Origin: a virus
Virus record (IMG/VR): IMGVR_UViG_3300037421_000101
Coordinates: 1-30,713 of that record
Direction: 5' to 3' (one strand)
Length of the DNA stretch: 30,713 nt
Part shown: one piece after another, positions 226-29,283 of the stretch
How positions within the stretch are numbered: position 1 is the first letter of the stretch
How the letters are laid out: each line of letters starts with the position of its first letter
The notes under the pieces: generated by a model
Told to the model about the DNA's origin: nothing
What the model saw: the letters and a program-made list of their open reading frames with translations, nothing else
The model's database searches: none
Program-made: the position numbers and the translations under genes

Positions 226-277
226 TTGCGTGCCCCCTTTGCCTGAAGAATAACGCAGGAACGCGAGAGGATCCCGT

Positions 278-810: not shown

Positions 811-822
811 AAGGGAGGCGCC

Positions 823-4300: not shown

Positions 4301-4468
4301 GGGCGACCGGAGCCCGTCGGGCCTGCGGCCGGCAGCACCTACAACATCACGGTGAACGTGCCGCCGACGGTCAACCCGAAGGACGCCGGCCGCCAGGTCG
4401 CCGCGCTGCTCGGCGCGCACATCAAGAGCGGCGGCCGGATCTACCCGGCCGGGGTGACGCCGAGGTGA
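1304..4468 (+). CDS. tape measure protein with C-terminal lytic transglycosylase domain
   Basis: The protein has 1054 residues and starts at GTG 1304 (AGGAAG upstream), overlapping the previous gene. The N-terminus is Ala/Lys-rich and helical. A long hydrophobic Gly/Ala stretch follows (about residues 130-190), typical of tape measure proteins that set tail length and insert into the host membrane. Residues 592-715 hold four 31-residue repeats. Around residue 895 an SLT-type lysozyme domain is visible (TQIQTESGGN, SVGLLQLIPSTF), with the Glu of ESGG as likely catalytic residue, so the protein may open peptidoglycan during DNA entry. By the usual rule of about 1.5 angstrom per residue the tail would be roughly 150 nm. 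The gene ends in GTGA, overlapping the next start. Confidence 0.93.
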   Translation: MAANESLRFDITANDRASDAFSKFGRSVSDVSAKMDGATARSIFLDDALKRQAETAKRSTDATLKLAASDKILDEVERRLADGALEAEFALKREADAKKKSGDAAVTAAAKNKTFADSLSNIANKTRSGGGPAWLGPALLAAGPLSSVAGVAAGATLGIAGAAVAGAGALAAFGAVAKPVLADALKASQAVNTAQNNYNVAIAAGTKQAVAYKAEQIAIGKAYAELSPQQIALSKQLGSMADAWDNLKAAETPVVAGALQPWLKSVTDLTGKLAPIIAKVSPVIRDLGTQFDHLVNSAAFKGFRDFVANTGSKVVGAVGSTLIDFVKALMILLPKFNPLIMTMTGGIAALGPAVLKWASSKKTADDITKFMDWFHANGPAVGHLLASIGGALKALAPGLGPASITELNIISGFFGLIAKLPAAVAKPLLEVAGALLILNKLGVISVGVKIVGAAAKWLTGGVAELGGGAAAGAEIRAAMVSGGVAAGAEIRAAMAGGAAADGAAVGGGEAVAMKGAAPAIGTLIGLAVAAQVGGFLAYRQFSNLFSSGVKGSSAAGQFGSSGQSAPLGAVLAGTGTNTAAKLTADLAPANALLKSLGYSQYAIGLINKAILKPGSDVGKVDALIYQLGGTQADILAVNKLIVKPGSDAVNIDSLLKKIGLTPPQIASVNKLKLKPGDDQSNVDAMLKKIGLTPPQIASVNRMILKPHSDTSPVSALQRAIDSLHGKTVNVLMHAAGSGSIYFNETTGVGGSVTGGLKFMARGGTGPALAVVGEQGPELVSLPPGARVYSHGQSAAMIPGIPGFAAGGYVPNYAGAVNWMGGSEYGFGKSVENSYAVRLIAQLKAAVQKAATAVNTGGVYLGPGSGNYAADITTVLRQLGLPLSLVGNWLTQIQTESGGNLGAVNRTDSNWLAGHPSVGLLQLIPSTFAAFAGPYRNTPPLVNYGGGTVSENPMAQIYAAIRYAATRYDGAAMASVIGHGHGYDQGGYLPPGLSLAWNGTGRPEPVGPAAGSTYNITVNVPPTVNPKDAGRQVAALLGAHIKSGGRIYPAGVTPR
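3077..3448 (+). repeat. four 31-codon repeats inside the tape measure gene
   Basis: Four tandem 93-base units encode LLKSLGYSQYA..., LIYQLGGTQAD..., LLKKIGLTPPQ... and MLKKIGLTPPQ..., each ending near a KPxSD/KPGDD motif. Units 3 and 4 share an exact 47-base match (3265-3311 and 3358-3404), so the last duplication is recent. Units 1 and 2 have diverged. Changes in repeat number could alter tail length in 31-residue steps. Confidence 0.85.
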
Positions 4469-5796
4469 CCAGCCCGCTGCCGGTGCTGCCGCAGATCATC
4501 GTCGAGGCGGCCATCCAGCCCGACACCCCGACGCAGACCAGCACCACACTGATCCTGAACGACGCCGTCCACGGGAAGCTGGACACCGGCACCCTCGGCA
4601 CCGCGATCACCTGGGCGAACATCTCGCCGCAGGTCATCTCCTTCACCGTCACGAGGCCGAGCACCCGGCTGCTGGGACCGCTGTGGAACTACCAGGCGGC
4701 CACCGCGTCGATCCTGCTGGACAACTCCGACGGCCGCTTCGACCCGGACAACCTCGCGGGCCCGTACGTGCTGGCCGGCGTCTCGCAGCTGGCCGCGATG
4801 GTGCCGGTACGGATCCGCGCCGTGTTCGCCCCGGTGACGTACCCGCTGTACTCGGGGTTCGCCGACGGGTGGCTGCCCGGCACCGTCACCTACGAGGGCG
4901 GCTACGCCGAGATCACCCTCCCGGCGACCGACGCGTTCAAGGTGCTGGCCGGGATCTTCCTGCCGGCGGTGACCATCGAGGGTGTCGGGGCGGCCACCGG
5001 CACCCGGATGGCCGACATCCTCAGCCGTGTCGGCTGGTACACCTCCGGGGAACGCCGCGTCATCTCCGCCGGGAACAGCACCCTGCAGGGCACCACGCTG
5101 GGCGACACGGCGCTGAACCTGATGCAGATCGCCGCCGACAGCGAGATCGGGCAGCTGTACGTGAACGGGTCCGGCGCGATCGTGTTCCGGGCGCGCCACG
5201 ACCTGCTCACCGACACCCGCAGCAACACGCCGCAGGCGGTGTTCGGGGACCTGCCCGGCACGGTGCAGTCCGCGGGCACCGAGCTCGCCTACGCGGCGCC
5301 GGGGCGCGCGAGCGATGACACGACGATCGGCAACGACATCCAGGCCACGCGCGTGGGCGGGACGCTGCAGGAAGTGCAGAACGCGGCGTCGATCGCGAAA
5401 TACCTGTTCCCCCGCACCTACGCCCGCAGTGACCTGATCCTGCAGAACGACTCCGACGCGCTGAACTGGGCGCAGTGGGTGCTGTACATCGCCGCGACGG
5501 GCGAGGACCGGTTCGAGACCCTCGCCGTCGACCCGGCCGCCGACCCGTTCAACCTGTGGCCGCAGGTGCTGGGCCGGGAGATCGGCGACCGCATCCAGAT
5601 ATGGCAGCGGCCAGCGTCCGTCGCGACGCCGGTATCGAAGGATTGTTTTATAACCGGCATCACCCACACCTGGGACTCGGTGAGCTCAGCGTGGCTCACC
5701 ACATGGACGCTGCAGGACGCCTCGAAGTACGGGTCATTCCTCACCCTCAACAACCCCACGCTCGGGAAGCTCAACTCAAACGCGCTGACGTTCTAG
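4465..5796 (+). CDS. minor tail / baseplate protein
   Basis: The protein has 443 residues and starts at GTG 4465 within a GTGA overlap with the tape measure gene. It contains many beta-strand-like segments and phrases typical of the first minor tail protein after the tape measure in actinophages (DNAVHGKLDTGTLG, ILLDNSDGRFDPDNLAGPY, YSGFADGWLP). That position normally holds a distal tail (Dit) or hub protein that joins tube and adsorption device. The C-terminal part (ITHTWDSVSSAWLTTWTLQD) also fits tail hub folds. Only small proteins follow, so the adsorption apparatus looks compact. The stop overlaps the opposing gene by 4 bases. Confidence 0.75.
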   Translation: MTSPLPVLPQIIVEAAIQPDTPTQTSTTLILNDAVHGKLDTGTLGTAITWANISPQVISFTVTRPSTRLLGPLWNYQAATASILLDNSDGRFDPDNLAGPYVLAGVSQLAAMVPVRIRAVFAPVTYPLYSGFADGWLPGTVTYEGGYAEITLPATDAFKVLAGIFLPAVTIEGVGAATGTRMADILSRVGWYTSGERRVISAGNSTLQGTTLGDTALNLMQIAADSEIGQLYVNGSGAIVFRARHDLLTDTRSNTPQAVFGDLPGTVQSAGTELAYAAPGRASDDTTIGNDIQATRVGGTLQEVQNAASIAKYLFPRTYARSDLILQNDSDALNWAQWVLYIAATGEDRFETLAVDPAADPFNLWPQVLGREIGDRIQIWQRPASVATPVSKDCFITGITHTWDSVSSAWLTTWTLQDASKYGSFLTLNNPTLGKLNSNALTF

Positions 5797-7967: not shown

Positions 7968-8500
7968 AAACAGTGAACCGCAACCAGGCTGCCATCGGCC
8001 TGCTGGCAGCAGCATCCCTCGCCGCCGGCCTGTTCATCATCGCGCAGGCCCCCGCGGGAGCCGCCCCCGCGCCCGTCGTCACATCCGTAACCCCGGCAGC
8101 CGACACGACAGGATCGCACGTGGTGGTGAGCGGCTCTAACCTCACCCTGCCGCCCGCCCTGCTGCCGACAGCGATCATGTTCGGCACCGTGAAAGCCGTG
8201 GTGAAAAGCTGCGCGCCGCTGACCGGCGCGGCGGCCAGCTGCACCGTGATCGTGCCGCCGCAGTGCCCCGGCGCCCCGAAGCGGGTGGACGTGCGGGTCA
8301 TCACAGGCAAGCTTGAAAGCGCCGTGTCGCCGGGGGACGGCTTCACGTACACCGACAACGGCAAGCCGGGACCGTCCTGCCCGTCACCCGCACCGTCACC
8401 GTCGTCGTCCGCGTCCAGTCCGGGCGCGCCGCCGTCATCCGCGCCGCCTGCGGCACCTGCCCCCGCGCCTGTCTCCGGCGCCGTCCCCGTGACCGGCTGA
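7964..8500 (+). CDS. secreted IPT/TIG-domain protein with Pro/Ser-rich tail
   Basis: The protein has 178 residues behind a strong AGGAGG site. It has a signal peptide ending near residue 33 ([18 protein letters not shown]...APAGAA). An immunoglobulin-like IPT/TIG fold follows ([20 protein letters not shown] to GDGFTYTD), and then a 40-residue Pro/Ala/Ser tail. Two Cys pairs could form disulphides. Such domains occur in actinobacterial surface and adhesion proteins and in some virion decorations. A signal peptide argues for export from the lysogen or lysing cell. It is coupled to the holin (ATGA) and the phospholipase D-like gene (TGATG). Function is unknown. Confidence 0.7.
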
Positions 8501-9048
8501 TGGCACTCCCCGACCTGTCGGTCCTCGCCCGGCACAAGGCCGTCCCGTTCGCGCCCGGCTACCCCTCGTCGCCGCTGACGTTCTACTCGCCAGTCGATGA
8601 CGTGCACGCCGTCCTGGTTGAACTGATCAAGTCTGCGAACAAGTCAGCTGTAGTCGCCCTCTATGGGTGGGATGACGATGAGCTTGCCGCCGCGCTCCTG
8701 GAGAAGCTCGACAACGAGAACGTGTTCGTCCAGCTCACCCTCGACTCATCGCAGGCCGCCGGCACGCACGAGAAGGCGCTGCTCGCCAAGGACGCGTTCC
8801 CGTCCAACTCGGTCGCCATCGGCCGGTCGGAGAAGGGCGCCATAATGCATCTCAAGCTGGTGATCATCGACGGCCTGGATGTCATTACCGGGTCGACGAA
8901 CTGGTCAGCGGGCGGCGAGGGCACCCAGGACAACCAGCTGACCGTGATCCGCGACCCGTACGTCGCCGCTGAGGCGCGGGCCCGCGTCGACATGATCCAC
9001 ACGCACATGCTCACCGCCGGCGCGAAACCGGCAGGGACAGCGATGTAG
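8500..9048 (+). CDS. phospholipase D-like (single HKD) protein
   Basis: The protein has 182 residues, close to the size of the single-HKD Nuc-type nucleases, which work as dimers. The HKD motif is clear: His117, Lys119 and Asp124 (HLKLVIID), followed by GSTNWS. The family cleaves phosphodiesters in DNA, RNA or phospholipids. No signal peptide is seen. Its position between a secreted protein and lysis enzymes is unusual. It could degrade host DNA, attack membrane lipid, or act in defence against other phages; none of these can be chosen from sequence. The start overlaps the preceding stop by one base. Confidence 0.85.
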
Positions 9049-9983: not shown

Positions 9984-10817
9984 GTGAGCGTCACCCCGTT
10001 CCGCGCCGGGCAGGTGCCCGGGGCGGCAGCAGAGCTGTACGCGATGCCGGAGGCCAGCACCGTCCGCACCCTGCTCGCCGACGTCAGCGAGTTCCAGCCG
10101 GACATCGCGGACGCCGCCTATCTCGCCTGGTCGAAGGCGATCGTCATCCGCGCCGCCTACGGCACCGCCCACGACGACAAGGCGTGGTACGGCGGGCAGC
10201 GCCGCGCGCTGCTGCACAGCGGAGGTGCCCAGTTCGTCGGCATCTACCAGTACCTGGTCGCCGGGCAGGACGGCGCCGCGCAGGCGAACGTGCTGCACGG
10301 CATCGTCGGCGCCCTCCGGAAAGGCGAGGTGCTGATCGCCGACTTCGAGGAAGGCGGCAAGCCGATGCTGACCGCCTGGTACAACCGGATGCTCCAGCTC
10401 GGGCATCCCGCCGAGTTCCTGTGGACGTACAGCGGCCTCAACTTCGGGCAGGCGAACGGGGCGCTGCCGGTGCAGTGGCTCGCCGCCTACCAGGGCGCCG
10501 AGCCTGCCAGCCCGCACACGCTCTGGCAGTTCACCAGCAGCTATCCGGTGCCGGGCGTCGGCCCCTGCGACTGTTCTGTATTCCACGGAAGCATCACGGA
10601 CCTGGCCGCGCTCGCCTACGGAGGCACCGTGCCAGCACCAGCCCCTGCTCCGGCCCCTAAGCCGCCAGTGCCGCCGATTACCGGCACGCAGCCCGGCTGG
10701 CGCTGGTGCGACAAGTGCGAGTGCCTCGTCCACGGGCCCGGCGCGTGCGCCAAGGGCGGCCTGCACAACCTGGGCACCTGGTCCTACTCGCTGCCGTTCA
10801 GCCACCCGGTCGGGTGA
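9984..10817 (+). CDS. GH25-type lysozyme (endolysin) with C-terminal binding module
   Basis: The protein has 277 residues and starts at GTG 9984 with AAGGAG 5 bases upstream. Residues 25-215 match the glycoside hydrolase 25 fold: Asp33 in LADVSEFQP, Asp120/Glu122 in IADFEE, then FLWTYSG, WLAAYQG, LWQFTSSYPVPG and CDCSVFHG. GH25 enzymes cut the N-acetylmuramyl bond of peptidoglycan. A PAPAPAPKPP linker leads to a module with WRWCDKCECLV...CAKGGLHNLG, a Cys-containing domain common in actinobacterial secreted proteins and probably wall-binding. It follows a terminator, so it needs read-through or its own promoter. The 3' end overlaps the opposing gene by 34 bases. Confidence 0.9.
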   Translation: MSVTPFRAGQVPGAAAELYAMPEASTVRTLLADVSEFQPDIADAAYLAWSKAIVIRAAYGTAHDDKAWYGGQRRALLHSGGAQFVGIYQYLVAGQDGAAQANVLHGIVGALRKGEVLIADFEEGGKPMLTAWYNRMLQLGHPAEFLWTYSGLNFGQANGALPVQWLAAYQGAEPASPHTLWQFTSSYPVPGVGPCDCSVFHGSITDLAALAYGGTVPAPAPAPAPKPPVPPITGTQPGWRWCDKCECLVHGPGACAKGGLHNLGTWSYSLPFSHPVG

Positions 10818-10975
10818 CCGTCGTCGCCCCACTCGAAGTCACCCGGGTCGCCTAGCCCGATCGACGCGAGGAAGTCGTTCTCCTCTTCGCATGTCGGCTC
10901 GTAGGGGCAGCAGTCACAGCAGATTTCGTTGGGACCGTCCGGGTAGCGATAGCCGCCGCCTGCCTCACCACTCAT
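10784..10975 (-). CDS. small acidic Cys-cluster protein
   Basis: The protein has 63 residues, starting at ATG 10975 behind AGAGGAGC. It has a dense Cys cluster (EICCDCCPYEPTC), then many acidic residues. It could bind metal. The start shares ATGA with the preceding leftward gene, and the end runs 34 bases into the oppositely oriented lysozyme gene. It is the last gene of the long leftward block. Function unknown. Confidence 0.6.
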   Translation of the reverse strand: MSGEAGGGYRYPDGPNEICCDCCPYEPTCEEENDFLASIGLGDPGDFEWGDDGHPTGWLNGSE

Positions 10976-11265
10976 GATTGCTCCTCTTCCCGCCACGCTT
11001 CCTCGGATCTGGCGGCGGCGCGCAGTTCGGCGACCTGCTCATCGGTCAGCGGGTCGCTGTCGACGGCGATGTGACCGAAGTGGATAGCCGGGTCGCTCTC
11101 AGAGCAGCCCTCCAGGCCCGGGCCGCGCCTCGTCAGCGGGTTGAGCGCAGCGCGGAATACTAGCCGGCCGTCCTCAACGGACCATTTGCCGGTCAGCGCC
11201 GTCGTGAAGCGGCAGTGACCGCAGGTAGCCAGCGGGTTGTCTATCTCCAGCCTGTACGGGTCCAT
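10972..11265 (-). CDS. hypothetical protein with CxxC motif
   Basis: The protein has 97 residues. It contains LATCGHCRFT near the N-terminus and a charged C-terminal helix (DPLTDEQVAELRAAARSEEAW). GGGAGG lies upstream of the ATG at 11265. It overlaps the upstream gene by 25 bases and the downstream one by ATGA, so it is part of a tight leftward operon. The family is not recognised. Confidence 0.6.
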   Translation of the reverse strand: MDPYRLEIDNPLATCGHCRFTTALTGKWSVEDGRLVFRAALNPLTRRGPGLEGCSESDPAIHFGHIAVDSDPLTDEQVAELRAAARSEEAWREEEQS

Positions 11266-11402
11266 AACCCCGATCCTCCCACCGTCGCCGCGAGCTCTTC
11301 CGCCTCCAGTGCCGCCTGCTCGTCTCCGGCCGCCACCCGCAGCGTCAGCGCCAGCACATGCGTGGTCAGGCGCAGCAGCGCGGGCAGGCAGTCAGCATCC
11401 AC
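11241..11402 (-). CDS. small helical protein
   Basis: The protein has 53 residues (MDADCLPALLRLTTHVLALT and on) and is mostly amphipathic helix. The GTG at 11402 has GGAGG 4 bases upstream, which decides this start over a longer reading. It overlaps the next leftward gene by 25 bases. Function unknown. Confidence 0.55.
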   Translation of the reverse strand: MDADCLPALLRLTTHVLALTLRVAAGDEQAALEAEELAATVGGSGLWTRTGWR

Positions 11403-11445
11403 GGGTCCTCCGGGGCGGATGGGGCGCGAGTGCGCTGCGCTGATT

Positions 11446-11589
11446 CTAGCTAAGCGGGCTGTCCCCAGGAGACCCATCGACCCACGGGAATGTCAGGGGC
11501 CAGCAGCCGAACGGGCCGCACGCCCACTGCTGCTCGGGCTCGGGAGGCGGGTCGAGCGGGGGCCGCGGGATCTCGTCATCGATGTACAT
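11446..11589 (-). CDS. small Pro-rich protein
   Basis: The protein has 47 residues: MYIDDEIPRPPLDPPPEPEQ, then a Cys/Trp-containing end (WACGPFGCWPL). GGAGGGAGAAG lies 9-19 bases before the ATG at 11589. An inverted repeat and a promoter candidate lie upstream. It is too short for standard callers, but the strand, start and neighbours fit a real gene. Function unknown. Confidence 0.5.
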   Translation of the reverse strand: MYIDDEIPRPPLDPPPEPEQQWACGPFGCWPLTFPWVDGSPGDSPLS

Positions 11590-11614
11590 GACGGCTGTCT
11601 TCTCCCTCCGGGCT

Positions 11615-11651
11615 GGCGGCGGGCGGTCGCCTGGAAGAAACCGCCCGCCGC
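11615..11651 (-). promoter_or_regulatory. 12-bp inverted repeat in leader
   Basis: GCGGCGGGCGGT (11616-11627) pairs exactly with ACCGCCCGCCGC (11640-11651), loop 12. It lies between the leftward promoter candidate at 11721-11749 and the gene starting at 11589. No U-tract follows on either strand, so a leader or protein-binding structure is likelier than a terminator. Confidence 0.45.
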
Positions 11652-11720
11652 TGCCGTGAAAGAGCGGAAAAGGCTGCTGAACTTTTCCTTTGCATCCGGC
11701 GGTTACCGGCTGCGTTCGCT

Positions 11721-11749
11721 AGCATACGCTTCGTGTTTTCCTGTGTCGA
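11721..11749 (-). promoter_or_regulatory. leftward sigma70-like promoter candidate
   Basis: On the minus strand TCGACA (11749-11744), 17 bases, then TATGCT (11726-11721). It sits in a lower-GC gap upstream of the gene starting at 11589. It would give the last four small leftward genes their own transcript. Confidence 0.45.
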
Positions 11750-11752
11750 GAC

Positions 11753-11836
11753 CTAGCGGGTGTGCGGCGGGTGCGGCTCGCACGTGAGGCACTTGCCGCA
11801 CAGCGTGCAGTGTGCGTGATCACAGTTCCTGCTCAT
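11753..11836 (-). CDS. 27-residue zinc-ribbon-like peptide
   Basis: The peptide MSRNCDHAHCTLCGKCLTCE... has five Cys and five His residues arranged as repeated CxxC pairs, consistent with metal binding. The ATG at 11836 has a near-perfect AAAGGAGGTC site and shares ATGA with the DUF397-like gene. This strong site and the coupling support it despite the length. Function unknown. Confidence 0.6.
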   Translation of the reverse strand: MSRNCDHAHCTLCGKCLTCEPHPPHTR

Positions 11837-12153
11837 CGCCGACCTCCTTTCAGCGCATCGGTGAACGCCCGCCATTCAGGGGCACTGAACGTCAGCACCG
11901 GCCCCTCCCGGTCCTGCGTGTCACGCACCGCGACACCGGAGGCGACCTCCACGCACTCACCGTTCTGGCACAGCCCCGCCGTCCGCCAGTCCGCGGCCTC
12001 CACGCAGGCGCCGGAGTTGCTCTGGCTCGCCTTGCGCCAGTCGCCTGCCTCCACGCAGTCGCCGTTGTAGGCGCTGCGGCGCGGCTTCCGCCAGTCCGTC
12101 ACCTCAATGCAGTTGCCGTTGCTAAAGCTGTGGCTGCTCTTGCGCCAGTTCAT
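11833..12153 (-). CDS. DUF397 protein with fourfold N-terminal motif
   Basis: The protein has 106 residues. DUF397 proteins are normally about 60-70 residues, with one WRKSSxSxxxxxCVEV start and a VAVRDTxDxxGPVLxFxxxEWxAF end. The end is present here (VAVRDTQDREGPVLTFSAPEWRAFTDALKGG). The start motif occurs four times: WRKSSHSFSNGNCIEV, WRKPRRSAYNGDCVEA, WRKASQSNSGACVEA and WRTAGLCQNGECVEV. The family is usually encoded beside an XRE regulator in Streptomyces and relatives and is thought to act with it. No such regulator adjoins it here. GGGAGG precedes the ATG at 12153. Confidence 0.85.
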   Translation of the reverse strand: MNWRKSSHSFSNGNCIEVTDWRKPRRSAYNGDCVEAGDWRKASQSNSGACVEAADWRTAGLCQNGECVEVASGVAVRDTQDREGPVLTFSAPEWRAFTDALKGGRR

Positions 12154-12299
12154 GATCCTCCCTGTTCCCGTTCTGCTGCCCTGCGCGCGGCGATCTTCGC
12201 CTCTTCGGCGAGCACGCGCTGATGGGCGCGCTCGGCCGCCGCGGCGGCCTGCGCCTTCGCGATCTCCAGTGCCTTGCGGAGAGCTTCGTTACTGGCCAT
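12150..12299 (-). CDS. small Ala/Glu/Arg-rich helical protein
   Basis: The protein has 49 residues (MASNEALRKALEIAKAQAAA and on), a single predicted long helix with alternating charged and Ala positions. GAAGGGAAA lies upstream of ATG 12299. It shares ATGA with the DUF397-like gene, so the two are translationally coupled; it could partner with it. Function unknown. Confidence 0.55.
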   Translation of the reverse strand: MASNEALRKALEIAKAQAAAAAERAHQRVLAEEAKIAARRAAEREQGGS

Positions 12300-12315
12300 G
12301 ATCGTTTCCCTTCAG

Positions 12316-12426
12316 CTAGTGGCAGGCCGTGCAGGAACAGCCGGGAGCCTCCCCGAAGCAGTGCTGCACGCCCCACCGGCACAGCCGGCACTTCTTGCCC
12401 CGGAGCCTCATCATCATGTGTCTCAC
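12316..12426 (-). CDS. 36-residue Cys-rich protein
   Basis: The peptide carries CRLC, HC and CSCTAC motifs near a basic N-terminus (MRHMMMRLRGKK), so metal binding is plausible. GTG 12426 is chosen because AGAGGTGG lies about 5 bases upstream; ATG 12417 in the same frame is poorly served. Function unknown. Confidence 0.5.
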   Translation of the reverse strand: MRHMMMRLRGKKCRLCRWGVQHCFGEAPGCSCTACH

Positions 12427-12501
12427 GTCGTCCACCTCTCTTTGCCGTCCCGGCCGCCATTCGAACAGCCGGGGTTCGAACGAATCCCTCCGGTGAGGGA
12501 T

Positions 12502-12696
12502 TCACTTCTGTTTCTTGCCCTTCCGCGTGCCTGTGCCCTTGCAGAAGAAGCACGGGCCGGACCGCTTCCGGTTGCTGCCCCACCGCTTCCCCGTACCCTT
12601 GCACCACCAGCACGAGACGTCCGGGAGATACCGGCGCAGCCCCCACCATCCGACGATGATCAGGACGGCGATGATGATGCCGACAGCGACGTTCAT
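12502..12696 (-). CDS. membrane-anchored DnaJ-type zinc-finger protein
   Basis: The protein has 64 residues. The N-terminus is one membrane span (VGIIIAVLIIVGWWGL). The remainder has two CxxCxGxG units (CWWCKGTGK and CFFCKGTGT) spaced as in DnaJ cysteine-rich domains, then a Lys-rich end. Two units suffice for one zinc site. GAAGGGCC lies before ATG 12696. A small protein 22502-22786 has a similar TM plus Cys plan. It may be a membrane chaperone adaptor; this is inference. Confidence 0.65.
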   Translation of the reverse strand: MNVAVGIIIAVLIIVGWWGLRRYLPDVSCWWCKGTGKRWGSNRKRSGPCFFCKGTGTRKGKKQK

Positions 12697-12770
12697 CGGC
12701 TCGGCCCTTCTCTCTGACTACCTAGAGTGGCAGTCACGCTTTGTGCAGATGTGGCGGAGTGTAGTCATCG

Positions 12771-12941
12771 CGGTCTGTCACGGTCTGTCACGATGTTACG
12801 GAGCGTTGTCGCAGGTCGTGTCGCATTGTCGCAGGCCAGGGAGGAAAGGCGAGCGGCCGAAGGCCGCTATTCTCCGCCGCGTTTCCTCCCGGCGTCGGCT
12901 GTCGTAGCTCTCCGTGACCGTCGTGGCCTGCGACAATTGTC
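12771..12941. promoter_or_regulatory. intergenic region with repeated 10-bp motifs
   Basis: The gap 12697-12939 has no supported gene. CGGTCTGTCA occurs twice in tandem (12771-12790). TTGTCGCAGG occurs twice directly 20 bases apart (12806-12815 and 12826-12835) and once inverted (12927-12936), where it abuts the palindrome GACAATTGTC (12932-12941). Evenly spaced copies suggest sites for a DNA-binding protein controlling the small-gene cluster to the left. No clear -35/-10 pair was identified. Confidence 0.5.
12852..12868 (-). terminator. hairpin after the HNH gene
   Basis: AGCGGCC (12852-12858) pairs with GGCCGCT (12862-12868) over a 3-base loop. On the minus strand it follows the HNH gene that ends at 12940 and is followed by CGCCTTTCC, a weak U-containing tail. 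It may separate the ftsK-HNH transcript from the small genes. Confidence 0.4.
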
Positions 12942-13638
12942 ACTTTGCGTCACCACCTGGGAAAAGGCGACGGACGGTAGTCATTACTCTGCGTGTCCAT
13001 CGCAGGGTCTCTACCCCGTAGCCGCCGTACTTGACCGCCAGCGTGTGCAGCCCCTCCGGGCTCGGGTACTCCAGCTGCTCAGCAGCGTTGCCGAGCGTCA
13101 CCCCGGAGCGCAGCAGCACCGCGGCCTCCTGGCCGATCGCCGTCACGCACCCGTGGCAGCGCCTCCCGTTGCCCGTGAACGCCTCTCCGCAGCGCACGCA
13201 GAGCTTCGCGGGTTTCGGCTTGGCGCCGTTGTTCTTCTTCCAGTCGTCCACGTTCTCGCGGCGCGTGCCGTAATGCATATCCTCGGGGACACGGCACCAT
13301 AGCGGTCCCTTCGCGGGGTCGTGCAGCGTCTCCTGCCCCTCAGGGCACTCGCCGACGTGTGCGGACAGGATGAGCTTGTGCCCCAGCACGGTCCGCTTGA
13401 CGCCCGCGTCGTCGGTGACGTTGAAGATCACGTAACCGGAGTTGTTCAGCCGGCCCGTCAGCAGGACACCCTTGAGGCGCCTGCCGGCTACCGTCCGGTC
13501 GACCGAGCGGATACCGCCCGACACCGTGACGACGCGGCCCTCCTCGACCGCCCACACGGTGTTGTCAGATGCCTCGTAGCTGGAGAAGTCCTGCGGCGGC
13601 TTCCACGTCTCGGTCCGCCGGTCACTGTCAGTTGTCAT
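12940..13638 (-). CDS. HNH endonuclease-like protein with zinc ribbon
   Basis: The protein has 232 residues, starting at ATG 13638 (AAAGGAC upstream), which overlaps the ftsK-like stop as ATGA. Residues 60-120 match the HNH_3-type fold seen in NUMOD-containing homing endonucleases: VLGHKLILSAHVGECPEGQ, LHDPAKGPLW, MHYGTRREN. His87, His106 and Asp107 are candidate metal ligands. A CVRC...CHGC zinc ribbon (about 147-164) and a helix-turn-helix-like end follow. The usual LHxDGxxxNNRxxNL stretch is altered, so activity is uncertain. Presence in this cassette may mark it as mobile, or it may nick DNA for the neighbouring ATPase. Confidence 0.7.
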   Translation of the reverse strand: MTTDSDRRTETWKPPQDFSSYEASDNTVWAVEEGRVVTVSGGIRSVDRTVAGRRLKGVLLTGRLNNSGYVIFNVTDDAGVKRTVLGHKLILSAHVGECPEGQETLHDPAKGPLWCRVPEDMHYGTRRENVDDWKKNNGAKPKPAKLCVRCGEAFTGNGRRCHGCVTAIGQEAAVLLRSGVTLGNAAEQLEYPSPEGLHTLAVKYGGYGVETLRWTRRVMTTVRRLFPGGDAK

Positions 13639-15443
13639 CGGAGTCCTTTCGCGAAGGTATGCAGATCGGTCAGGAGGTATTCGTTCGCGCCGCCGCGCGT
13701 GCCGCACGGCTTCGGCGGGTCCGCGGCGCGCTCGACGGCCTTGCGGACCGCGGCGAGCGACCGGCGCCCGAAAACGCCCTCGTCGACGGCCTCGCGCAGT
13801 GTCTTAGCAGGCGGCTGCGGGGGCTCTTGTCGTACGACGTCGCCCAGTTCAGGGGGGTTATGGGAAGAGATGGCGCGTGCTGCGACACTGGGCGGCCACA
13901 GCTGCAGCGGGACGCCCTCGGGGCCGGACGGGATGCGGGCGACGATGCCGGAGACAGCCAGGTCCCGCGCCCACGCGACCGCCTTGTCGCTGACCTCAGT
14001 GTCCTTGTCGTCCAGGTGCAGGTAGGGGACCTGCGTTTCCCGCACGCCTTCGCCGGTCACTACCTGTATCCGCCCGGGGATGGTGGTCATCGGCGGCATC
14101 GGGATGTGCTTGCCCACCACCATGTCCCAGCCGGGCCGGTCCCAGCGGGCCATCAGCTTGATACCGCAGTTAGTGCGGACAGACGAGTCCTTCACCCCCG
14201 TCGACTCAACGGTCAGCATCTGCGCGATCAGGATCTCGTGCATGTCGGAGGCCCGCCCCGCAGCCGACAGCGCCGCCAGCCCCGACAGCGCCGGGGAGCG
14301 CTTCGGGTCAGTCTCCTTGTCGCGGATCTCGGTCCAGTAGTCCTTAAGGGGCTGCATTCCGTAGTTCAGCTCCTCGCACACCACGATGACCCGCGACCCT
14401 ACGTTGCCGCGCACCCGGCCGGTTCCCTCCGCCGAGTAGTAAGCGGCCCGGATGCGCCGCTTCAGCTCCCTGCCGAGCCACGTCAGTGCCAGGTGCAGGT
14501 CAGCGACGTCGTGGGCGTTGATCACGTTCGGGAGGCCCTGCAGCCACAGGTGGCTGATCCACTTCGGGTCGAGGTTGAAGATCAGCGATCCGCGCATCAT
14601 CTCCTGCAGCAGCATGAACGCCGCCAGGTTGCTCTTGCCGCCGCCCGATCCGCCGGGGACGGCCACGTGGGGGCTCTGGCCGTAAGATGCCTTCGTGATC
14701 GCGTCCTTCTTGCCCATGCCGATCACGAGCTCGTCCGCGGCGGCGGCCTTCACGGCGGCGGCGAGGTCTTCCCACGTCACGTGCGCCGGCGGCGGCTCAC
14801 TCGGCGTGAACGTGACAGACCGCATCCGCCCCTTCAGCCGCCAGTCCGTATCCGGGGCCTCGATGGCGAGCCGCGTGGTGACAGCCTGCAGCACATAGCC
14901 CTGGTCGGCCGGGCTGATCTCGGTGTCATGCGGCCACTCGATGGCAACGCCCTTGATCACGTCGCGTGCCCGCTCCACCTCGAGCCTGACGGGCCGGGCG
15001 GGTATCCCGTGCAAGAGGGTGCCTTCCAGCGGCCGCACGTAGTGGCGTTCATGCTGCCAGTGACGGATCTTGTGCACCGCGCGCCACACGCCGAGCGCGG
15101 TCAGCGCGGCGGCCGCGGTGCACAGGCACACGACAGTCGCGAGCGTGGCCGTGACCAGCCCGTACGCGATCGTGAGGGCAAGGACGGTGCCGCCGGTGCG
15201 GTAGCCGGCCCGGCGGCGGCGCGGCAGGTAATGCCAGCGCAGCGCCGACGGGTGCAGGGCACGGTCCCCGCGGCGCGTCCACGTCGCGTTCGTCCGGTGC
15301 TCCCCGTCCATGCAATGGCCGCTGAACCAGAACCACGCCGGGCCCAGCACCCGCGCCACCGCGAGCAGGAACCCGCTCAGCACCCTGATCACCAGGATCG
15401 CCGCAATGATGGCCAGGCACAGGATGACCACGGCATCCCTCAC
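13635..15443 (-). CDS. FtsK/SpoIIIE-family ATPase (TraB-like DNA translocase)
   Basis: The protein has 602 residues. The N-terminus has membrane segments at about 4-35 and 85-118. The ATPase follows, with Walker A at 264-271 (GGSGGGKS), then FNLDPKW and a Walker B-like strand at 351-358 (RVIVVCEE). There the usual Asp is Cys356 with Glu357/358 after it. GLAALSAAGRASDMHEILIAQ is typical of the RecA-like motor. The last 60 residues look like a winged helix (SLAAVRKAVERA...NEYLLTDL) that could bind DNA. The family pumps double-stranded DNA; in Streptomyces plasmids the TraB version alone drives conjugation. It is coupled by GTGA to the DUF2637 gene and by ATGA to the HNH gene. Confidence 0.88.
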   Translation of the reverse strand: MRDAVVILCLAIIAAILVIRVLSGFLLAVARVLGPAWFWFSGHCMDGEHRTNATWTRRGDRALHPSALRWHYLPRRRRAGYRTGGTVLALTIAYGLVTATLATVVCLCTAAAALTALGVWRAVHKIRHWQHERHYVRPLEGTLLHGIPARPVRLEVERARDVIKGVAIEWPHDTEISPADQGYVLQAVTTRLAIEAPDTDWRLKGRMRSVTFTPSEPPPAHVTWEDLAAAVKAAAADELVIGMGKKDAITKASYGQSPHVAVPGGSGGGKSNLAAFMLLQEMMRGSLIFNLDPKWISHLWLQGLPNVINAHDVADLHLALTWLGRELKRRIRAAYYSAEGTGRVRGNVGSRVIVVCEELNYGMQPLKDYWTEIRDKETDPKRSPALSGLAALSAAGRASDMHEILIAQMLTVESTGVKDSSVRTNCGIKLMARWDRPGWDMVVGKHIPMPPMTTIPGRIQVVTGEGVRETQVPYLHLDDKDTEVSDKAVAWARDLAVSGIVARIPSGPEGVPLQLWPPSVAARAISSHNPPELGDVVRQEPPQPPAKTLREAVDEGVFGRRSLAAVRKAVERAADPPKPCGTRGGANEYLLTDLHTFAKGLR

Positions 15444-16207
15444 TGGCCGTTCCCGGCGCTCCGCAGGTGCTGCTGGATGAGCCGCGCTTTCTCGTCGCCG
15501 ACGTGCATGACGGTCATGATGCGGCGGATGCCCGGCACCCTCCCGGCGTCGGTGTCGTCACGGAACATCCGCTCGGCCCTCGCCGCGTGACCGTTCAGTG
15601 CGGCGCGGATGAGTGACGGATCGGCTGGCGGCTCAGGTGCACCCGGAACCGCCCGCTTAGCCACCACCCGCTTCAGCACCCCGAGACCCACCGCCAGAGC
15701 GGCGGCGGCAGCCAGCGGGGGGATAGACGCCGTGCCCCGGTCGGTGATCCTGTGCGACGCGACGTGGCCGATGTTCCCGGCGACGGACACGGCGAGCCCG
15801 GCCAGCGTCACGAGCCACGCGCCGGCGCGGTCCCGCGTCCGCCACCCGTCGATCAGCGCGACGAACAGCGCCAGCTCCCCGACCGCAATGAACACGTCAA
15901 CCTGAAGCGGGAACGCGGCCTGCCAGAAGCCGGTCAGGCCGTGATGCCCGGCCCACTCGTACAGGCCGCGGTAGGACTCGGCGAAGGCCGCGCCGGACGC
16001 GGTGGCGACCAGGACGGCAATGGCGATCAGGGCGGCGAGGCGGGGGCCGCGCAGGATGCCCGGACGGGGCAGCGGAGTGTCATCGCCGGCGAATCTCGCG
16101 CGGATGCTGCCGAGCCGGGTGCGCAGCCGGGTGAAGACGCCGTCTTGTGATGCAACGGTAACGACTCGGTCTCTAGAGTGGCCAGAGTTGCCACTGTTAG
16201 GTTTCAA
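15440..16207 (-). CDS. DUF2637 (SpdB-like) membrane protein
   Basis: The protein has 255 residues. Four membrane spans are visible (about 55-77, 95-118, 130-150 and 160-178). The conserved stretch SYRGLYEWAGHHGLTGFW...FPLQVDVFIAVGELALF identifies DUF2637. These proteins occur next to TraB/FtsK-like ATPases in actinomycete plasmids and AICEs, where Spd proteins help plasmid spread between hyphal compartments. The C-terminus has a helix-turn-helix-like part (RRIMTVMHVGDEKARLIQQHL). The start is probably TTG 16207 with GGAAAGG upstream. The stop overlaps the ATPase start (GTGA). Function is inferred from family context. Confidence 0.82.
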   Translation of the reverse strand: MKPNSGNSGHSRDRVVTVASQDGVFTRLRTRLGSIRARFAGDDTPLPRPGILRGPRLAALIAIAVLVATASGAAFAESYRGLYEWAGHHGLTGFWQAAFPLQVDVFIAVGELALFVALIDGWRTRDRAGAWLVTLAGLAVSVAGNIGHVASHRITDRGTASIPPLAAAAALAVGLGVLKRVVAKRAVPGAPEPPADPSLIRAALNGHAARAERMFRDDTDAGRVPGIRRIMTVMHVGDEKARLIQQHLRSAGNGQ

Positions 16208-16239
16208 CGTGGGGCCTTTCCTGCTGGTTCAGGGAGGGT

Positions 16240-16259
16240 GAGCCGTCTTCGGGCGGCTC
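16240..16259. promoter_or_regulatory. inverted repeat in leader of DUF2637 gene
   Basis: GAGCCGTC (16240-16247) can pair with GGCGGCTC (16252-16259) around TTCG, with one G-T pair. It lies 33 bases before the DUF2637 start. No U-tract is seen. It could be a terminator remnant for the small genes upstream, or a leader structure. The rest of 16208-16329 shows nothing else convincing. Confidence 0.35.
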
Positions 16260-16329
16260 CGGGCTGCGTTGAGTGCTTTGATCACTTGGCGCGGCCCGCC
16301 TGTCAGTTATTCAGTTGACTTCGGTAGAG

Positions 16330-16491
16330 CTACGCAGTGCCGGCAGAGTCCGGGTCTCCTCGGTGATTGAACTCCACTATCGCCTCGTGGAGCTGACCGA
16401 GCTGCGCGGCCATCTGCTGCAAGGCGCCGTTCATGCCGGCGGCGCATTCGGCGATCTGCTCGATGCGCTCGGCCGTAGTCAGCTCATCCAC
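16330..16491 (-). CDS. small helical protein
   Basis: The protein has 53 residues (MDELTTAERIEQIAECAAGM and on). One continuous helix runs to about residue 43, then a polar tail. GTG 16491 overlaps the previous gene's stop by 8 bases, suggesting coupling. Leu/Ile spacing (MAAQLGQLHEAIVEF) suggests oligomerisation. It is the last small gene before DUF2637. Function unknown. Confidence 0.6.
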   Translation of the reverse strand: MDELTTAERIEQIAECAAGMNGALQQMAAQLGQLHEAIVEFNHRGDPDSAGTA

Positions 16492-16705
16492 CGGCACACC
16501 GCCGCTCCAGCTCGTCGAGGAGCCCGCGAAGGTCGAGCGCGGCCGCCTGCTCGCCCCCGTCGCGCACCGCCCGCCACAGCAGCCGCTCGTCGCACGTGAT
16601 CAGCCACTCCGGGTGCGCCTCCTCGAACGCGCGCTGCCGCGCCACCTGGTCCACGGCGTCATCGACGCCGCGCAGGTGCCTCTCTCTCGGTCCCCTGTGA
16701 TCCAT
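16484..16705 (-). CDS. hypothetical protein
   Basis: The protein has 73 residues. It has a basic N-terminus (MDHRGPRERHLRGVDDAV), then FEEAHPEWLITCDERLLWRAV, a phrase that recurs in small actinobacterial hypotheticals, then a charged helix. AAAGGGGGAG lies 6 bases before ATG 16705. It is part of the leftward operon from the operator-bearing promoter at 17044-17087. Function unknown. Confidence 0.6.
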   Translation of the reverse strand: MDHRGPRERHLRGVDDAVDQVARQRAFEEAHPEWLITCDERLLWRAVRDGGEQAAALDLRGLLDELERRCAGG

Positions 16706-16719
16706 TCCCGCTCCCCCTT

Positions 16720-16869
16720 TTAGTGCGCTTTCCTGCGGCTGAAGAACTCCCGCAGCGCCGTCAGCACCACCTCGCCGAGCGACATGTCGTTCGCCTTCGC
16801 GTAGTCCCGCAGTTCCGCCTCGTCGGGCGGCGGCAGGCGCACGCTGAGCGGCTTACGCTGACTGGGCAA
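16720..16869 (-). CDS. ribbon-helix-helix (CopG/Arc-like) DNA-binding protein
   Basis: The protein has 49 residues. The pattern PLSVRLPPPDEAELRDYA followed by MSLGEVVLTALREFF is that of ribbon-helix-helix proteins: one strand, two helices, dimeric. The start is probably TTG 16869, overlapping the upstream gene by 17 bases; no clear binding site is seen, so coupled translation is likely. Such proteins act as operator-binding repressors or antitoxins, or assist relaxosomes in plasmids. It could regulate the nearby twin-operator promoter, though the operators could also belong to another protein. Confidence 0.65.
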   Translation of the reverse strand: MPSQRKPLSVRLPPPDEAELRDYAKANDMSLGEVVLTALREFFSRRKAH

Positions 16870-17026
16870 CGCCGGCCGCCCGCGAGACGGTGAGCGTCCG
16901 CTCGATCTCGTCGAGCACGGTTTCAGGGATGACGTTGTTCAGCCCTAGCAGCGTTGCGCGCAGCTCGACCTCGCTCATCGTCATGATGTGGCTGTCGGCC
17001 AGCTGCCACTTGTCTCGTGCCTTCAC
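16853..17026 (-). CDS. hypothetical first gene of the leftward cassette
   Basis: The protein has 57 residues, starting at GTG 17026 with GAGGG 7 bases upstream. Two short helices are predicted (SEVELRATLLGL and ETVLDEIERTLTVSR). It directly follows the operator-controlled promoter, so it may be the most tightly regulated product. It is not recognised. A longer upstream reading was rejected because it runs through the promoter and repeats. Confidence 0.6.
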   Translation of the reverse strand: MKARDKWQLADSHIMTMSEVELRATLLGLNNVIPETVLDEIERTLTVSRAAGVAQSA

Positions 17027-17043
17027 GTTCCGCCCTCTCGATT

Positions 17044-17087
17044 GGTGTACTACACCGCACCATACGCGAAGGTGTACTACACCGCAA
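17044..17087 (-). promoter_or_regulatory. leftward promoter with two operator copies
   Basis: On the minus strand TTGCGG (17087-17082), 17 bases, TATGGT (17064-17059). The 16-bp sequence GGTGTACTACACCGCA occurs at 17044-17059 and 17071-17086 (+ strand), each built on the near-palindrome GGTGTA-C-TACACC. One copy fills the spacer and the other lies over the start point, an arrangement expected for strong repression. The first gene starts 18 bases further. Confidence 0.7.
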
Positions 17088-17097
17088 GGGGGCGCGG

Positions 17098-17378: not shown

Positions 17379-17681
17379 TTAACCAGGGATAATGTCCGGT
17401 TTGCCGTCCCGGAGGGCACTTCCGGGGCATCTCGACTGCCGGAAAGAGGGTAATCCGGGTGGTCGCTCCAGACGGTGGCGAGGTCCAGGACGTTCCGGGT
17501 TAGGCACGGTGAGGGTCACCCAGCTGATCATGTCGGCGAGAGCACGGTCGGCTTCCACGGGGTCTGCGGGATCGGCAGTGATGAACCGCAGCCGGGCCGA
17601 GTAGTAATTGCCTTCCGGGGTCTGGTACCGCCCGGCGGCGGCGAGTTCAGCGACGATGGCGGCCTCGTCAACCTCATCCAT
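17379..17681 (-). CDS. small protein coupled to integrase, chimeric C-terminus
   Basis: The protein has 100 residues. ATG 17681 (GGAGG upstream) lies within the integrase stop region (8-base overlap), so it is translated with integrase. Residues 1-63 look like an ordinary folded protein (MDEVDEAAIVAELAAAGRYQ to ALADMISWVTLTVPNPE). The rest (RPGPRHRLERPPGLPSFRQ...) is the DUF6221 3' end read in a wrong frame. The gene therefore seems to have lost its own end by recombination with a DUF6221 fragment. It may be non-functional at its C-terminus. The family is not recognised. Confidence 0.55.
   Translation of the reverse strand: MDEVDEAAIVAELAAAGRYQTPEGNYYSARLRFITADPADPVEADRALADMISWVTLTVPNPERPGPRHRLERPPGLPSFRQSRCPGSALRDGKPDIIPG
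17450..17492 (+). repeat. 43-bp repeat, copy 2 (DUF6221 remnant)
   Basis: Matches 5814-5856 at 41 of 43 bases, same orientation. Read on the minus strand in the right frame it gives VLDLATVWSDHPDY, the end of DUF6221 proteins, but no complete gene surrounds it. It is fused out of frame to the gene after integrase. Confidence 0.9.
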
Positions 17682-19023
17682 GGTCAGCCTCCGTTCCCCC
17701 GCCGAGCGTATCCGCCCCGCCGAAGAACCGGTCAACGGCCGCGCGCCCGTCGTCGCCGCTCTCGCCCGGCATCAGGTGCGCGTAGGTGCCCAGCACCACC
17801 GCCGGGGTGTCCCCTAGCCACGCAGCCGTCCGCACCACGTCGATGCCGGCCCGCAGCCACACCGACGCCGCCGTGTGCCGCAGCGCGTGCATGCCGTTCT
17901 CCCGCGCCGCCGCCCGCTTCTCCCCCGGCGCCAGCGGCGGCGTGATCCCCGCCTTCTCCTGCGCCGGCCACCACGCCGACGGGTTGAACAGGTCCCGCTT
18001 CAGCGGCAGGCCGTCCGGCCGCGACAGCACCAGCCGTACCGTCACCGGGCGGCCGTGCGCGCCCGGGTCGCGCAGGTCATGCCACGGCAGCGTCACCTCC
18101 TGCGGCGGGTACAGCTCCATGTGCCGGGACAGCCGGGGTGCCAGCGACGCCGCCAGCGGCACCTGCCGGGGCCTGCGGTTCTTCAGCGGCGCGAAGAACA
18201 GCTGCCCGGCCACCATCTTCAGCTGCCGCGTCACCGTCACGTGCGGATGCCTGCCGAGGAATGCAACGTCCCCGGCCGCCAGGCCGAACAGCTCCCCCTG
18301 CCGCAGCCCGGTGCCCGCGCCGAGCGGCGGCAGGATCGCGTACCTGGCCGGCAGCGCCGCCGCCATCGCCTCCACCTGCTCCGCCGTCCACGGCCGCGCC
18401 TTGTTCTGCCCGCGCGGCGGCAGGCTCACGCTCGCCGCCCGCACCGGGTTGCGGGACACCAGGCTGTCATCGGCCGCCGCCCTGAACACCGCCGACACGT
18501 TCCCGGCGACCTCCCGCGCCGTCGACGGCTGCAGCGGCATCGCCGCCATCCACGCCGCCACCAGCGACGGGCGCCGCGCCAGCTCCCGCAGCCGCCGCTG
18601 GCCGATCGCCACCCCGCCGCGCGGGGTCCGCCCCGAGCCGGGCCGCGCCGGGTCCTCGTACACGTGCAGCCGCAGGTGCTGCTCGAGCAGCTCCGCGGAC
18701 ACCGTGTCGTGGCGGCGCGTCTTCCGCCAGTCCTCCGCGTACGCCTGGAGGGTGACGTCGGCGGCGGCCGGGTCGGTGTAGTCGCCGGCGTTCAGGTCCC
18801 GGCGCAGCTGCGCGTCGAACGCGTCCGCGTGGCGGTTCGGGTCCTTCCCCTCCCTGTAGGCGAAGCTCTTCTTGCGCTGCCTGCCCTTGTCGTCGTAATA
18901 GCGGACCTGCCAGCGGGGGCCGCGCCCGTGGACGGCCGACGGGTACAGCCTCGCGCGGCCCCGGCTGTGCTCCCGGCACAAAACATCGCCCGATTTCGTG
19001 TGCCACCGGTCGTAGACGGCCAA
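17674..19023 (-). CDS. int: tyrosine integrase
   Basis: The protein has 449 residues. The likely start is TTG 19023 with CAGGAGC upstream. The N-terminal arm and core-binding region is residues 1-200 (WQVRYYDDKGRQRKKSF; TLQAYAEDWRKTRR). The catalytic domain has Arg241 (GTGLRQGELFGL), Lys281, His379 and Arg382 (HALRHTAAS) and Tyr414 (GTYAHL). The usual His/Trp before the Tyr is Asp405 (WLGDTPAVV), as in many actinobacterial integrases. It inserts the phage at a host att site and excises it with an excisionase, probably one of the HTH_17 proteins encoded at 20254 or 20974. It is divergent from the gene at 19218. Confidence 0.95.
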   Translation of the reverse strand: MAVYDRWHTKSGDVLCREHSRGRARLYPSAVHGRGPRWQVRYYDDKGRQRKKSFAYREGKDPNRHADAFDAQLRRDLNAGDYTDPAAADVTLQAYAEDWRKTRRHDTVSAELLEQHLRLHVYEDPARPGSGRTPRGGVAIGQRRLRELARRPSLVAAWMAAMPLQPSTAREVAGNVSAVFRAAADDSLVSRNPVRAASVSLPPRGQNKARPWTAEQVEAMAAALPARYAILPPLGAGTGLRQGELFGLAAGDVAFLGRHPHVTVTRQLKMVAGQLFFAPLKNRRPRQVPLAASLAPRLSRHMELYPPQEVTLPWHDLRDPGAHGRPVTVRLVLSRPDGLPLKRDLFNPSAWWPAQEKAGITPPLAPGEKRAAARENGMHALRHTAASVWLRAGIDVVRTAAWLGDTPAVVLGTYAHLMPGESGDDGRAAVDRFFGGADTLGGGTEADHG

Positions 19024-22786: not shown

Positions 22787-23793
22787 GCGCCGTACTCGTC
22801 CCGGCCAGCAGCGAGGCCGAATGGCTGGAAGCGCGCAGGCAGGGCATCACCGCGTCGGAGATCGCCGTCGTGCTCGGCCTGAGCCCGTACAGCTCGCCGT
22901 ACAAGCTGTACCACCAGAAGCTGGGCATCCTGCCAGCCGACGGCGACAGCCCGGCGATGGAGCGCGGGCGCGTGCTGGAGCCGTATGTCGTGGGGAAGTT
23001 CGCCGCGGCGCACCCGGATTTCATCGTCGACGGCGACGGGCGCGAGCTGTTTGCCCACCCCGAGCGCGCATGGCAGATGGCGACGCCCGACCGCCTGCTG
23101 TTCACCGATCAGACGCCGCCCGGCATAGAAGAGCCGTTCCTCACCCTCGGGTCGGCCGGCCTGCTGGAGACCAAGACAGCCTCCGACATGAGCGAGTGGG
23201 GCGAGCCGGGCACCGGCGAGATACCCGTCCACTACCGCGCCCAGGTGCTGTGGCAGATGGACGTCATGGGCGTCGCCGCTGTCTGGGTCGCCTGCCTGGA
23301 CGTTCCCCGGTGGGAAGTGCGCGAGTACGTCATCGAGCATGACCCGTACGTCCCGCTTGGCTACGACGTCACGCACACGATCGACGCCACGGGCGGCATC
23401 TGCGACCTGTGCGCCGACATCCTCATGATGCGCGTAGCCGCGCTGGAGTTCCTCGATCGGATCGAGCGCCAGGACGCACCCGACGTCGACTGGCGTCCCG
23501 CCACCATCGGCGCGCTGAAGGCCCTCCACCCGTCAGTCACCGACGAAGACGTCTTCGTCGGCTCGCAGGTAGCCCGGCGGTACCGCGCCGCCGCCCGCAA
23601 CCACAAGCACTGGGAACAGCGCAAGAGGCTCTACGAAGCGCAGCTGCGCCAGCAGATGGGCTCCGCGCGCCGCGCATGGTCCGGCGGCGAGGTCATCGCC
23701 CGCCGCGACGTCTTCGAGCAGCGCGAGTACGTCCGGAAGGCAACGACCGTCGACAAGCTCGTGCCCGTATACCCCAAGGAGAAGCAGTCATGA
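22783..23793 (+). CDS. YqaJ-family viral recombinase exonuclease
   Basis: The protein has 336 residues from GTG 22783. Motifs match lambda-exonuclease-like YqaJ proteins: GITASEIAVVLGLSPYSSPYKLY, MERGRVLEPYV (Glu66), TPDRLL (Asp103), LLETKTAS (Glu129, Lys131) and VHYRAQVLWQMD. These residues form the PD-(D/E)xK active site that resects double-stranded DNA 5' ends. It is paired with RecT downstream (ATGA), giving a single-strand annealing recombination system for phage DNA repair, concatemer formation and gene exchange. Confidence 0.9.
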   Translation: MSAVLVPASSEAEWLEARRQGITASEIAVVLGLSPYSSPYKLYHQKLGILPADGDSPAMERGRVLEPYVVGKFAAAHPDFIVDGDGRELFAHPERAWQMATPDRLLFTDQTPPGIEEPFLTLGSAGLLETKTASDMSEWGEPGTGEIPVHYRAQVLWQMDVMGVAAVWVACLDVPRWEVREYVIEHDPYVPLGYDVTHTIDATGGICDLCADILMMRVAALEFLDRIERQDAPDVDWRPATIGALKALHPSVTDEDVFVGSQVARRYRAAARNHKHWEQRKRLYEAQLRQQMGSARRAWSGGEVIARRDVFEQREYVRKATTVDKLVPVYPKEKQS

Positions 23794-24896: not shown

Positions 24897-25113
24897 CCCA
24901 GCAGAGCTGCTCGAGGCGATCGACGACGCCAGGATCATCGACGTCATCACGGACCCGGCGGGCGACTGGATCAAGGTCGGGGTGATCAGGCACGCGGTGC
25001 TCATCGGCATCAGCGGCTCGCCCGTGATCCTCGACACCCCCGAGCGGCGCGACCGGTTCATGAAGGCGTACGCCGAGGCCGAGCGCCAGGCCGAGGCGGC
25101 GGGAGATGGGTAG
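24886..25113 (+). CDS. hypothetical early protein
   Basis: The protein has 75 residues from ATG 24886 (GAGGTG upstream), overlapping RecT by 11 bases. ELLEAIDDARIIDVITDPAG...GVIRHAVLIGISG...DTPERRDRF is a compact alpha/beta pattern. Function unknown. Confidence 0.65.
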   Translation: MASDPAELLEAIDDARIIDVITDPAGDWIKVGVIRHAVLIGISGSPVILDTPERRDRFMKAYAEAERQAEAAGDG

Positions 25114-25153: not shown

Positions 25154-25171
25154 GGAGACAAGGACACGTGG

Positions 25172-27171: not shown

Positions 27172-27172
27172 C

Positions 27173-29277: not shown

Positions 29278-29283
29278 TGGGCG

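Follow-up and report, generated by a model that had tools for sequence, protein, structure and literature searches.

TraB-type DNA translocases of actinomycetes read the repeats of the clt transfer site through a C-terminal winged helix, and a GntR-family Kor/TraR regulator is common, though not essential, in their loci. The recognition by TraB of 8-bp repeats at clt is described in statements quoted in PMC3583192 and PMC4170104, and the clt site of the plasmid pWTY27 covers 16 bp of traA and 159 bp downstream of it and contains inverted repeats as well as four repeats of 7 bp (PMC3583192). Actinomycete integrative and conjugative elements (AICEs) combine an integrase with a plasmid-type Rep protein (RepSA, RepAM or Prim-Pol) and an FtsK-like Tra protein (PMC3218068). 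A single element, pZL12/phage ZL12, combines phage genes with the transfer function of a plasmid, according to the title of a 2010 paper in J Bacteriol cited in PMC4487206, and pZL12 transfer genes are mentioned in a passage of PMC3583192. This element is the closest precedent for the locus described here, a minus-strand operon that lies between the endolysin and integrase genes of a 30,713-bp viral contig in IMG/VR (IMGVR_UViG_3300037421_000101; this whole stretch is called the window). Unlike the window, in which no par genes were seen, pZL12 is a 90-kb extrachromosomal replicon with ParA/ParB. The motors are not detectably related; tblastn gave no match in pZL12 to the motor of the window or to those of two related phages, L092 and L020.

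The operon encodes a DUF2637 membrane protein and an FtsK/TraB-like ATPase, and a short-repeat array lies downstream. On these sequence features, we consider it probable that the cassette is a regulated, single-motor, TraB-type module for the transfer of double-stranded DNA, carried by a temperate tailed phage and permitting particle-free spread. The cassette and its two neighbors consist of the following features, for which identities to the counterparts in the related phage L019 are given where available.

9984-10817, plus strand: GH25 endolysin (PHROG endolysin, 4.7e-19), the convergent left neighbor of the cassette.
12727-12939, minus strand: candidate clt-like site, non-coding, directly after the HNH stop codon, with an array of about 130 bp at 12805-12937.
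12940-13638, minus strand: HNH/NUMOD4-like protein, 232 aa (PHROG HNH, 7.7e-13; NUMOD4 match weak).
13635-15443, minus strand: FtsK/TraB-like DNA translocase, 602 aa (PHROG FtsK/SpoIIIE, 1.1e-5).
15440-16207, minus strand: DUF2637 membrane protein, 255 aa (Pfam PF10935, 2.2e-8, above cut-off).
16484-16705, minus strand: small open reading frame (ORF), 73 aa (L019 counterpart 59% identical).
16720-16869, minus strand: ribbon-helix-helix (RHH)-like protein, 49 aa, TTG start (L019 counterpart 90% identical).
16853-17026, minus strand: first small ORF of the operon, 57 aa (L019 counterpart 77% identical over the matched part).
17044-17083, minus strand: cassette promoter/operator, with two 13-bp palindromes GGTGTAGTACACC at 17044-17056 and 17071-17083, read directly.
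17674-19023, minus strand: tyrosine integrase (PHROG integrase, 2e-31; Pfam, 2.2e-6), the right neighbor of the cassette.

By its sequence, the ATPase is a motor of the plasmid-transfer type. Patterns taken directly from it found no relatives in the viral or genome collections, and relatives there were retrieved only by way of an alignment. The ATPase matched 58 records of the plasmid collection, the most complete of which are small linear actinomycete plasmids, and the phage collection gave a single weak match. Two of the plasmids, pRL2 (Streptomyces sp. 44414) and pPR2 (Planobispora rosea), carry the DUF2637 gene adjoining the motor gene in the same order as the window, and their motors are about 30% identical to that of the window over most of the ATPase length. 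Unlike the window, these putative transfer loci reside on linear plasmids that encode their own replication functions and lack phage genes. Alignment of the ATPase by HHalign to a set led by pSVH1 TraB gave 95.9% (E 5.6e-9). The match to Pfam FtsK_SpoIIIE (0.0016) falls below cut-off. The sequence-only reading had proposed refuting a transfer role by a placement of the ATPase among phage-only families without transfer function. This outcome did not occur: no phage-only clade was seen in a motor tree of 67 rows, and full-length homologs exist on actinomycete plasmids, AICE-like elements and phages. A role as the phage packaging motor is ruled out, as the terminase is separate.

Structural comparisons lead to the same type of motor. 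The A2 profile reached the coupling protein TcpA of pCW3 in the PDB at 5.6e-10, and Foldseek searches with an AlphaFold model of the ATPase gave TcpA (9e-14) and FtsK (7e-12) as top matches. TcpA is therefore the closest solved structure by fold and profile, at 16-17% identity, but it works within a multi-protein conjugation apparatus in Clostridium. The domain order of the window motor is N-terminal transmembrane segments (hydropathy peaks at residues 4-22 and 101-119, a predicted membrane anchor), a RecA-type motor, and a helical/beta C-terminal domain that is modeled confidently at residues 546-601. Walker A (G269-K270-S271) and Walker B (E357-E358) residues are invariant across the motor family. 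The DUF2637 protein has about four transmembrane segments predicted from hydropathy and a variable C-terminal tail. A search of the plasmid collection with this protein gave no match at E 1e-3, and thus the link to plasmids rests on the motor and the gene order. Short FtsK-like ATPases of 309-321 aa without transmembrane segments, also relatives of plasmid motors, are found in the lytic-type genomes of phage Dagobah and L017.

The repeat array downstream of the cassette, newly found here, is a candidate clt-like site. The sequence-only reading did not contain it, but had suggested a search for clt-type short repeats near the cassette, and that search was positive. All three copies of TGTCGCAGG in the window are within the array (12807, 12827 and 12927), as are four of the seven copies of TGCGACA. 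A 14-bp inverted repeat (12825-12838 and 12924-12937) and a core, CGACCTGCGACAAC, at 12805-12818 are also present. The repeat content exceeds that of all 2000 dinucleotide shuffles (P<=0.0005) and is the strongest among 12 intergenic gaps, and the strand folds with a z of -4.5. As a positive control, the identical test applied to pSVH1 recovered five copies of GACCCGGA, the published clt repeat of pSVH1, directly after traB and followed by CTCTGACCTGCGCAAAC, a core that the window array also contains. In both place and form, the window array matches the clt sites of pSVH1 and pWTY27. The pSVH1 locus further resembles the window in having a membrane-protein gene, an FtsK-type membrane motor and a TGACCTGCGNAAAC-like core, but it differs in its repeat (GACCCGGA instead of TGCGACA/TGTCGCAGG) and its GntR regulator, and it resides on a rolling-circle plasmid without phage genes.

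Arrays of this kind are also associated with other phage motors. For motors of the L091 type, an array occurs within 170 bp past the stop codon in all 12 cases (P 0.001-0.004), and among these phages the similarity of array motifs tracks motor identity (Spearman 0.54, permutation P 0.0005). A 14-bp core, YGACCWGSGNVAAC, lies after or inside the arrays of phages, pSVH1 and the window, and it accompanies 10 of 20 motors compared with 1 of 418 other gene ends (Fisher P 3e-14). A literature search for this core returned only unrelated matches among those listed. Sites of the motif CTCTGACCTGCGNAAAC occur in the window at 30665-30678, in L086 at 16591, in L002 at 239, 340 and 1634, and in L128 just past traB; among these are sites that precede the terminase in two phages, sites close to one end of pRL2, and sites within clt-like arrays. 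Two other roles for the array were considered. An attachment site is unlikely because the array is 4.7 kb from the integrase and because equivalent arrays follow motors in phages with either serine or tyrosine integrases. A terminator is ruled out, given the lack of a T-run and the presence of several repeat copies.

The layout of the cassette has the appearance of a regulated operon. It shares the strand of the integrase and opposes the lysis and tail genes. A -10-like TATGGT lies between the paired GGTGTAGTACACC palindromes, and L019 carries the operator pair at the equivalent position with one or two changes. The RHH-like protein, whose Pfam match to the RHH-like family DUF6290 is weak and below cut-off (E 7e-4), is the likely repressor of the cassette. 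The genes named in the sequence-only reading are all present, leftward, and situated between lysis and integrase, but its description of them as all tightly overlapped fits only the last three, since two small ORFs and a 123-bp gap separate the RHH-like gene from DUF2637. Overlaps of 4 bp join DUF2637 to the ATPase and the ATPase to HNH. Likewise, the right part of the earlier span (10784-17087) holds, whereas 10784-12700 contains small unrelated ORFs and a protein with DUF397-type units in place of genes for transfer. A span of about 12727-17090 describes the functional unit better. The DUF397 protein itself (11833-12153, minus strand, 106 aa) has an unusual tandem form of four units, which Pfam matches in four stretches (E 5.7e-30); L019 and the record of L020 contain single DUF397 genes. 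A PLD-family protein (8500-9048, plus strand; Pfam 1.2e-13) is encoded amid the lysis and tail-end genes.

The element that carries the cassette is a phage. The window encodes a tape measure, tail and lysis proteins, an integrase, a repressor, RecE/RecT and an O-like replication protein, and a second contig, L021/L085 (29,892 bp), supplies terminase, portal, protease and capsid genes. Its match to the right end of the window (23096-30713) spans 7,618 bp with 100% identity, and its match to the left end (1-4731) spans about 4.7 kb with 99-100%; by computed overlap the two contigs close a circle of roughly 48 kb. The overlap at both ends implies a circular or permuted genome of about that size. 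Since L021/L085 both overlaps the window ends and contributes the terminase, portal and capsid, the whole can be viewed as a complete-looking temperate phage; together the contigs hold the terminase, portal, capsid, tape measure, endolysin and integrase expected of a temperate tailed phage. The tape-measure copies of the two contigs differ by a repeat-length indel. Dense tandem repeats at 25409-25539 (plus strand), within the O-like replication gene (25172-25939; PHROG 3e-28), are a probable iteron origin of replication. Relatives of the window DUF2637 protein, found in 68 of 347 Streptosporangiales genomes and in 3 of 395 in a class-wide sample, point to Streptosporangiales as the host.

Related phages keep the slot between the integrase and the convergent lysis and tail genes, and exchange the motor within it. 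Compared with the window, L019 is 85% identical in its integrase, 78% in DUF2637 (best segment) and 91% in its endolysin, but just 34% in its motor, which is adjoined by another, different NUMOD4-HNH gene. L020 keeps DUF2637 (76%, best segment) alongside a different FtsK-like motor of 699 aa and a serine integrase. In L091 and L092, whose integrases are about 50% identical, the slot holds a GntR-type regulator, a membrane protein and a TraB-type motor of 690-700 aa; the L092 motor matches pSVH1 TraB at 1e-14 in tblastn. Motors of the pRL2 type are present in eight further phages (L008-L014 and L018), between the integrase/repressor side and the convergent lysis and tail genes. Across the slots of all these phages, the motors are unrelated or highly diverged. 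An equivalent arrangement is seen in six Micromonosporaceae prophages of named genomes (L064, L066, L067, L070, L076 and L078). GntR-type genes adjoin the motor in L020, L091, L092 and L118, as assigned by reading the sequence, which is also the source of many other gene labels in the related loci, in place of profile matches. IMG/VR contigs can be mis-binned, but a check was made that tape-measure and lysis genes adjoin the module.

An independent case comes from a cultured organism. The pPaSha2 record (CP052773) of Pseudonocardia alni is a complete 41.9-kb circle that encodes terminase, portal, protease, capsid, holin, integrase, DUF2637 and an FtsK-like motor; although labeled a plasmid, it is a full circular phage genome. 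In L114, a 58-kb viral contig, a DUF2637 protein 57-62% identical to that of the window is encoded beside another FtsK/TraG-like motor (2991-4280 and 878-2845).

The phage motors are under purifying selection, with rough NG86 dN/dS values of 0.22-0.38. In the tree of 67 rows, the window and L019 form a well-supported but long-branched pair, and because of these long branches their place relative to the plasmid motors is unsure. Phages and AICE-like elements share motor modules: the Micromonosporaceae clade mixes prophages with elements for which no phage gene was detected within 10 kb, and prophage L078 is sister to L063/L065 (Micromonospora veneta) with support of 100/100. Like the window, L063 has an integrase, an FtsK-like motor and a membrane protein at the DUF2637 position, and the motors of such elements are about 70-75% identical to phage motors. 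Unlike the window, it is an element of about 10 kb with a plasmid-type, primase-like replication gene and no structural or lysis genes of phages. Of the AICE components, the window has the integrase and the motor; its replication gene is phage O-like, and no search was aimed at RepSA or Prim-Pol.

If the cassette is a transfer module, its parts suggest how it might act. The RHH-type repressor, bound to the twin palindromic operators, would hold the operon down in lysogens. Once the operon is expressed, the DUF2637 protein and the predicted N-terminal transmembrane segments of the ATPase would anchor the motor in the membrane where septa lie or hyphae touch. The ATPase would assemble on the array at 12805-12937, serving as the clt-like site of the excised circular phage DNA, and would pump this DNA, as a double-stranded circle, into an adjoining compartment or a neighboring hypha, where the phage integrase would re-insert it. 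The phage could in this way spread without virions, either by reaching new hyphae or by moving through the septated mycelium that it already inhabits. Because equivalent sets of genes and repeats occupy the same place in many related viruses, such phages may spread between hyphae without particles. More tentatively, a large unnamed group of temperate actinophages might be dual-mode, each member holding a swappable TraB-type motor and a matching clt array in a fixed slot, spreading both by virions and by particle-free conjugation, and trading modules with AICEs.

Several observations weigh against a transfer role. The window motor shares only about 24-35% identity with any of its relatives, and its AlphaFold model is of moderate quality (mean pLDDT 72). 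The window has no GntR/KorA-type regulator and carries the RHH-like gene instead. The array follows the HNH gene and not the motor directly, no clear downstream array accompanies the motors of L019 or the pRL2-type phages, and that of L020 is weak. The 14-bp core is found about 7 times per Streptomyces genome, compared with about 0.1 for a reversed control, and also upstream of the terminase; thus, it is not specific to transfer sites. The DUF2637 protein occupies the SpdB2 position, but SpdB2 of pSVH1 has no Pfam DUF2637 match, which weakens the earlier equation of DUF2637 with Spd proteins. Furthermore, chromosomal DUF2637 genes without an adjoining motor are common in Streptosporangiales, which rules out DUF2637 as an exclusive marker of transfer. 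Loci of this kind (L104-L111) have no motor within the 1.5 kb examined on each side.

Other functions can be envisioned for the same genes. FtsK motors with a membrane anchor carry DNA across septa, pPaSha2 and some other carriers are circular replicons, and the arrays could be centromere-like, all of which would suit a motor and array that partition the excised or extrachromosomal prophage among compartments and spores with no transfer to other mycelia. This is unlikely, as an integrase is encoded by many carriers, and several carriers are prophages residing in the chromosome, which need no partition, and the array resembles the clt sites noted above. Such a function also shades into intramycelial spreading, which is itself part of the proposed transfer role. 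A contribution to the phage cycle, in DNA entry, packaging or superinfection exclusion, would agree with the membrane-free FtsK-like proteins of Dagobah and L017 and with the position of the cassette beside the lysis genes. However, the cassette is oriented with the integrase and against the lysis and tail genes, the phage has its own terminase, and the motor family also occurs on plasmids and AICE-like elements that lack phage genes, making this role quite improbable.

The cassette might alternatively be idle cargo, acquired by recombination as the transfer operon of a plasmid and now decaying. The low identity between the motors of the window and L019, set against that of their integrases, is as expected for frequent swaps, and some relatives lack the array. 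Yet the Walker motifs and reading frames are intact, the operator pair is conserved, the motors evolve under purifying selection, and an equivalent module persists in this slot across many phages. Decay is accordingly very unlikely, and particle-free transfer is the reading we favor.

No paper on such a module in integrative actinophages was found in a literature search whose scope excluded most subscription journals. Cultured carriers exist in Pseudonocardia alni Shahu (pPaSha2), Micromonospora andamanensis, Micromonospora alfalfae and Actinoplanes italicus, and the idea of dual spread is therefore open to immediate testing. The pairing of motor and array also offers a rule by which clt sites can be located from sequence and assigned to their motors. 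If particle-free transfer does occur, some phages of filamentous bacteria would have two routes of spread. This would help explain how prophages colonize septated mycelium, a setting in which lysis and diffusion come at a high cost, and how modules come to be exchanged between phages and integrative elements.

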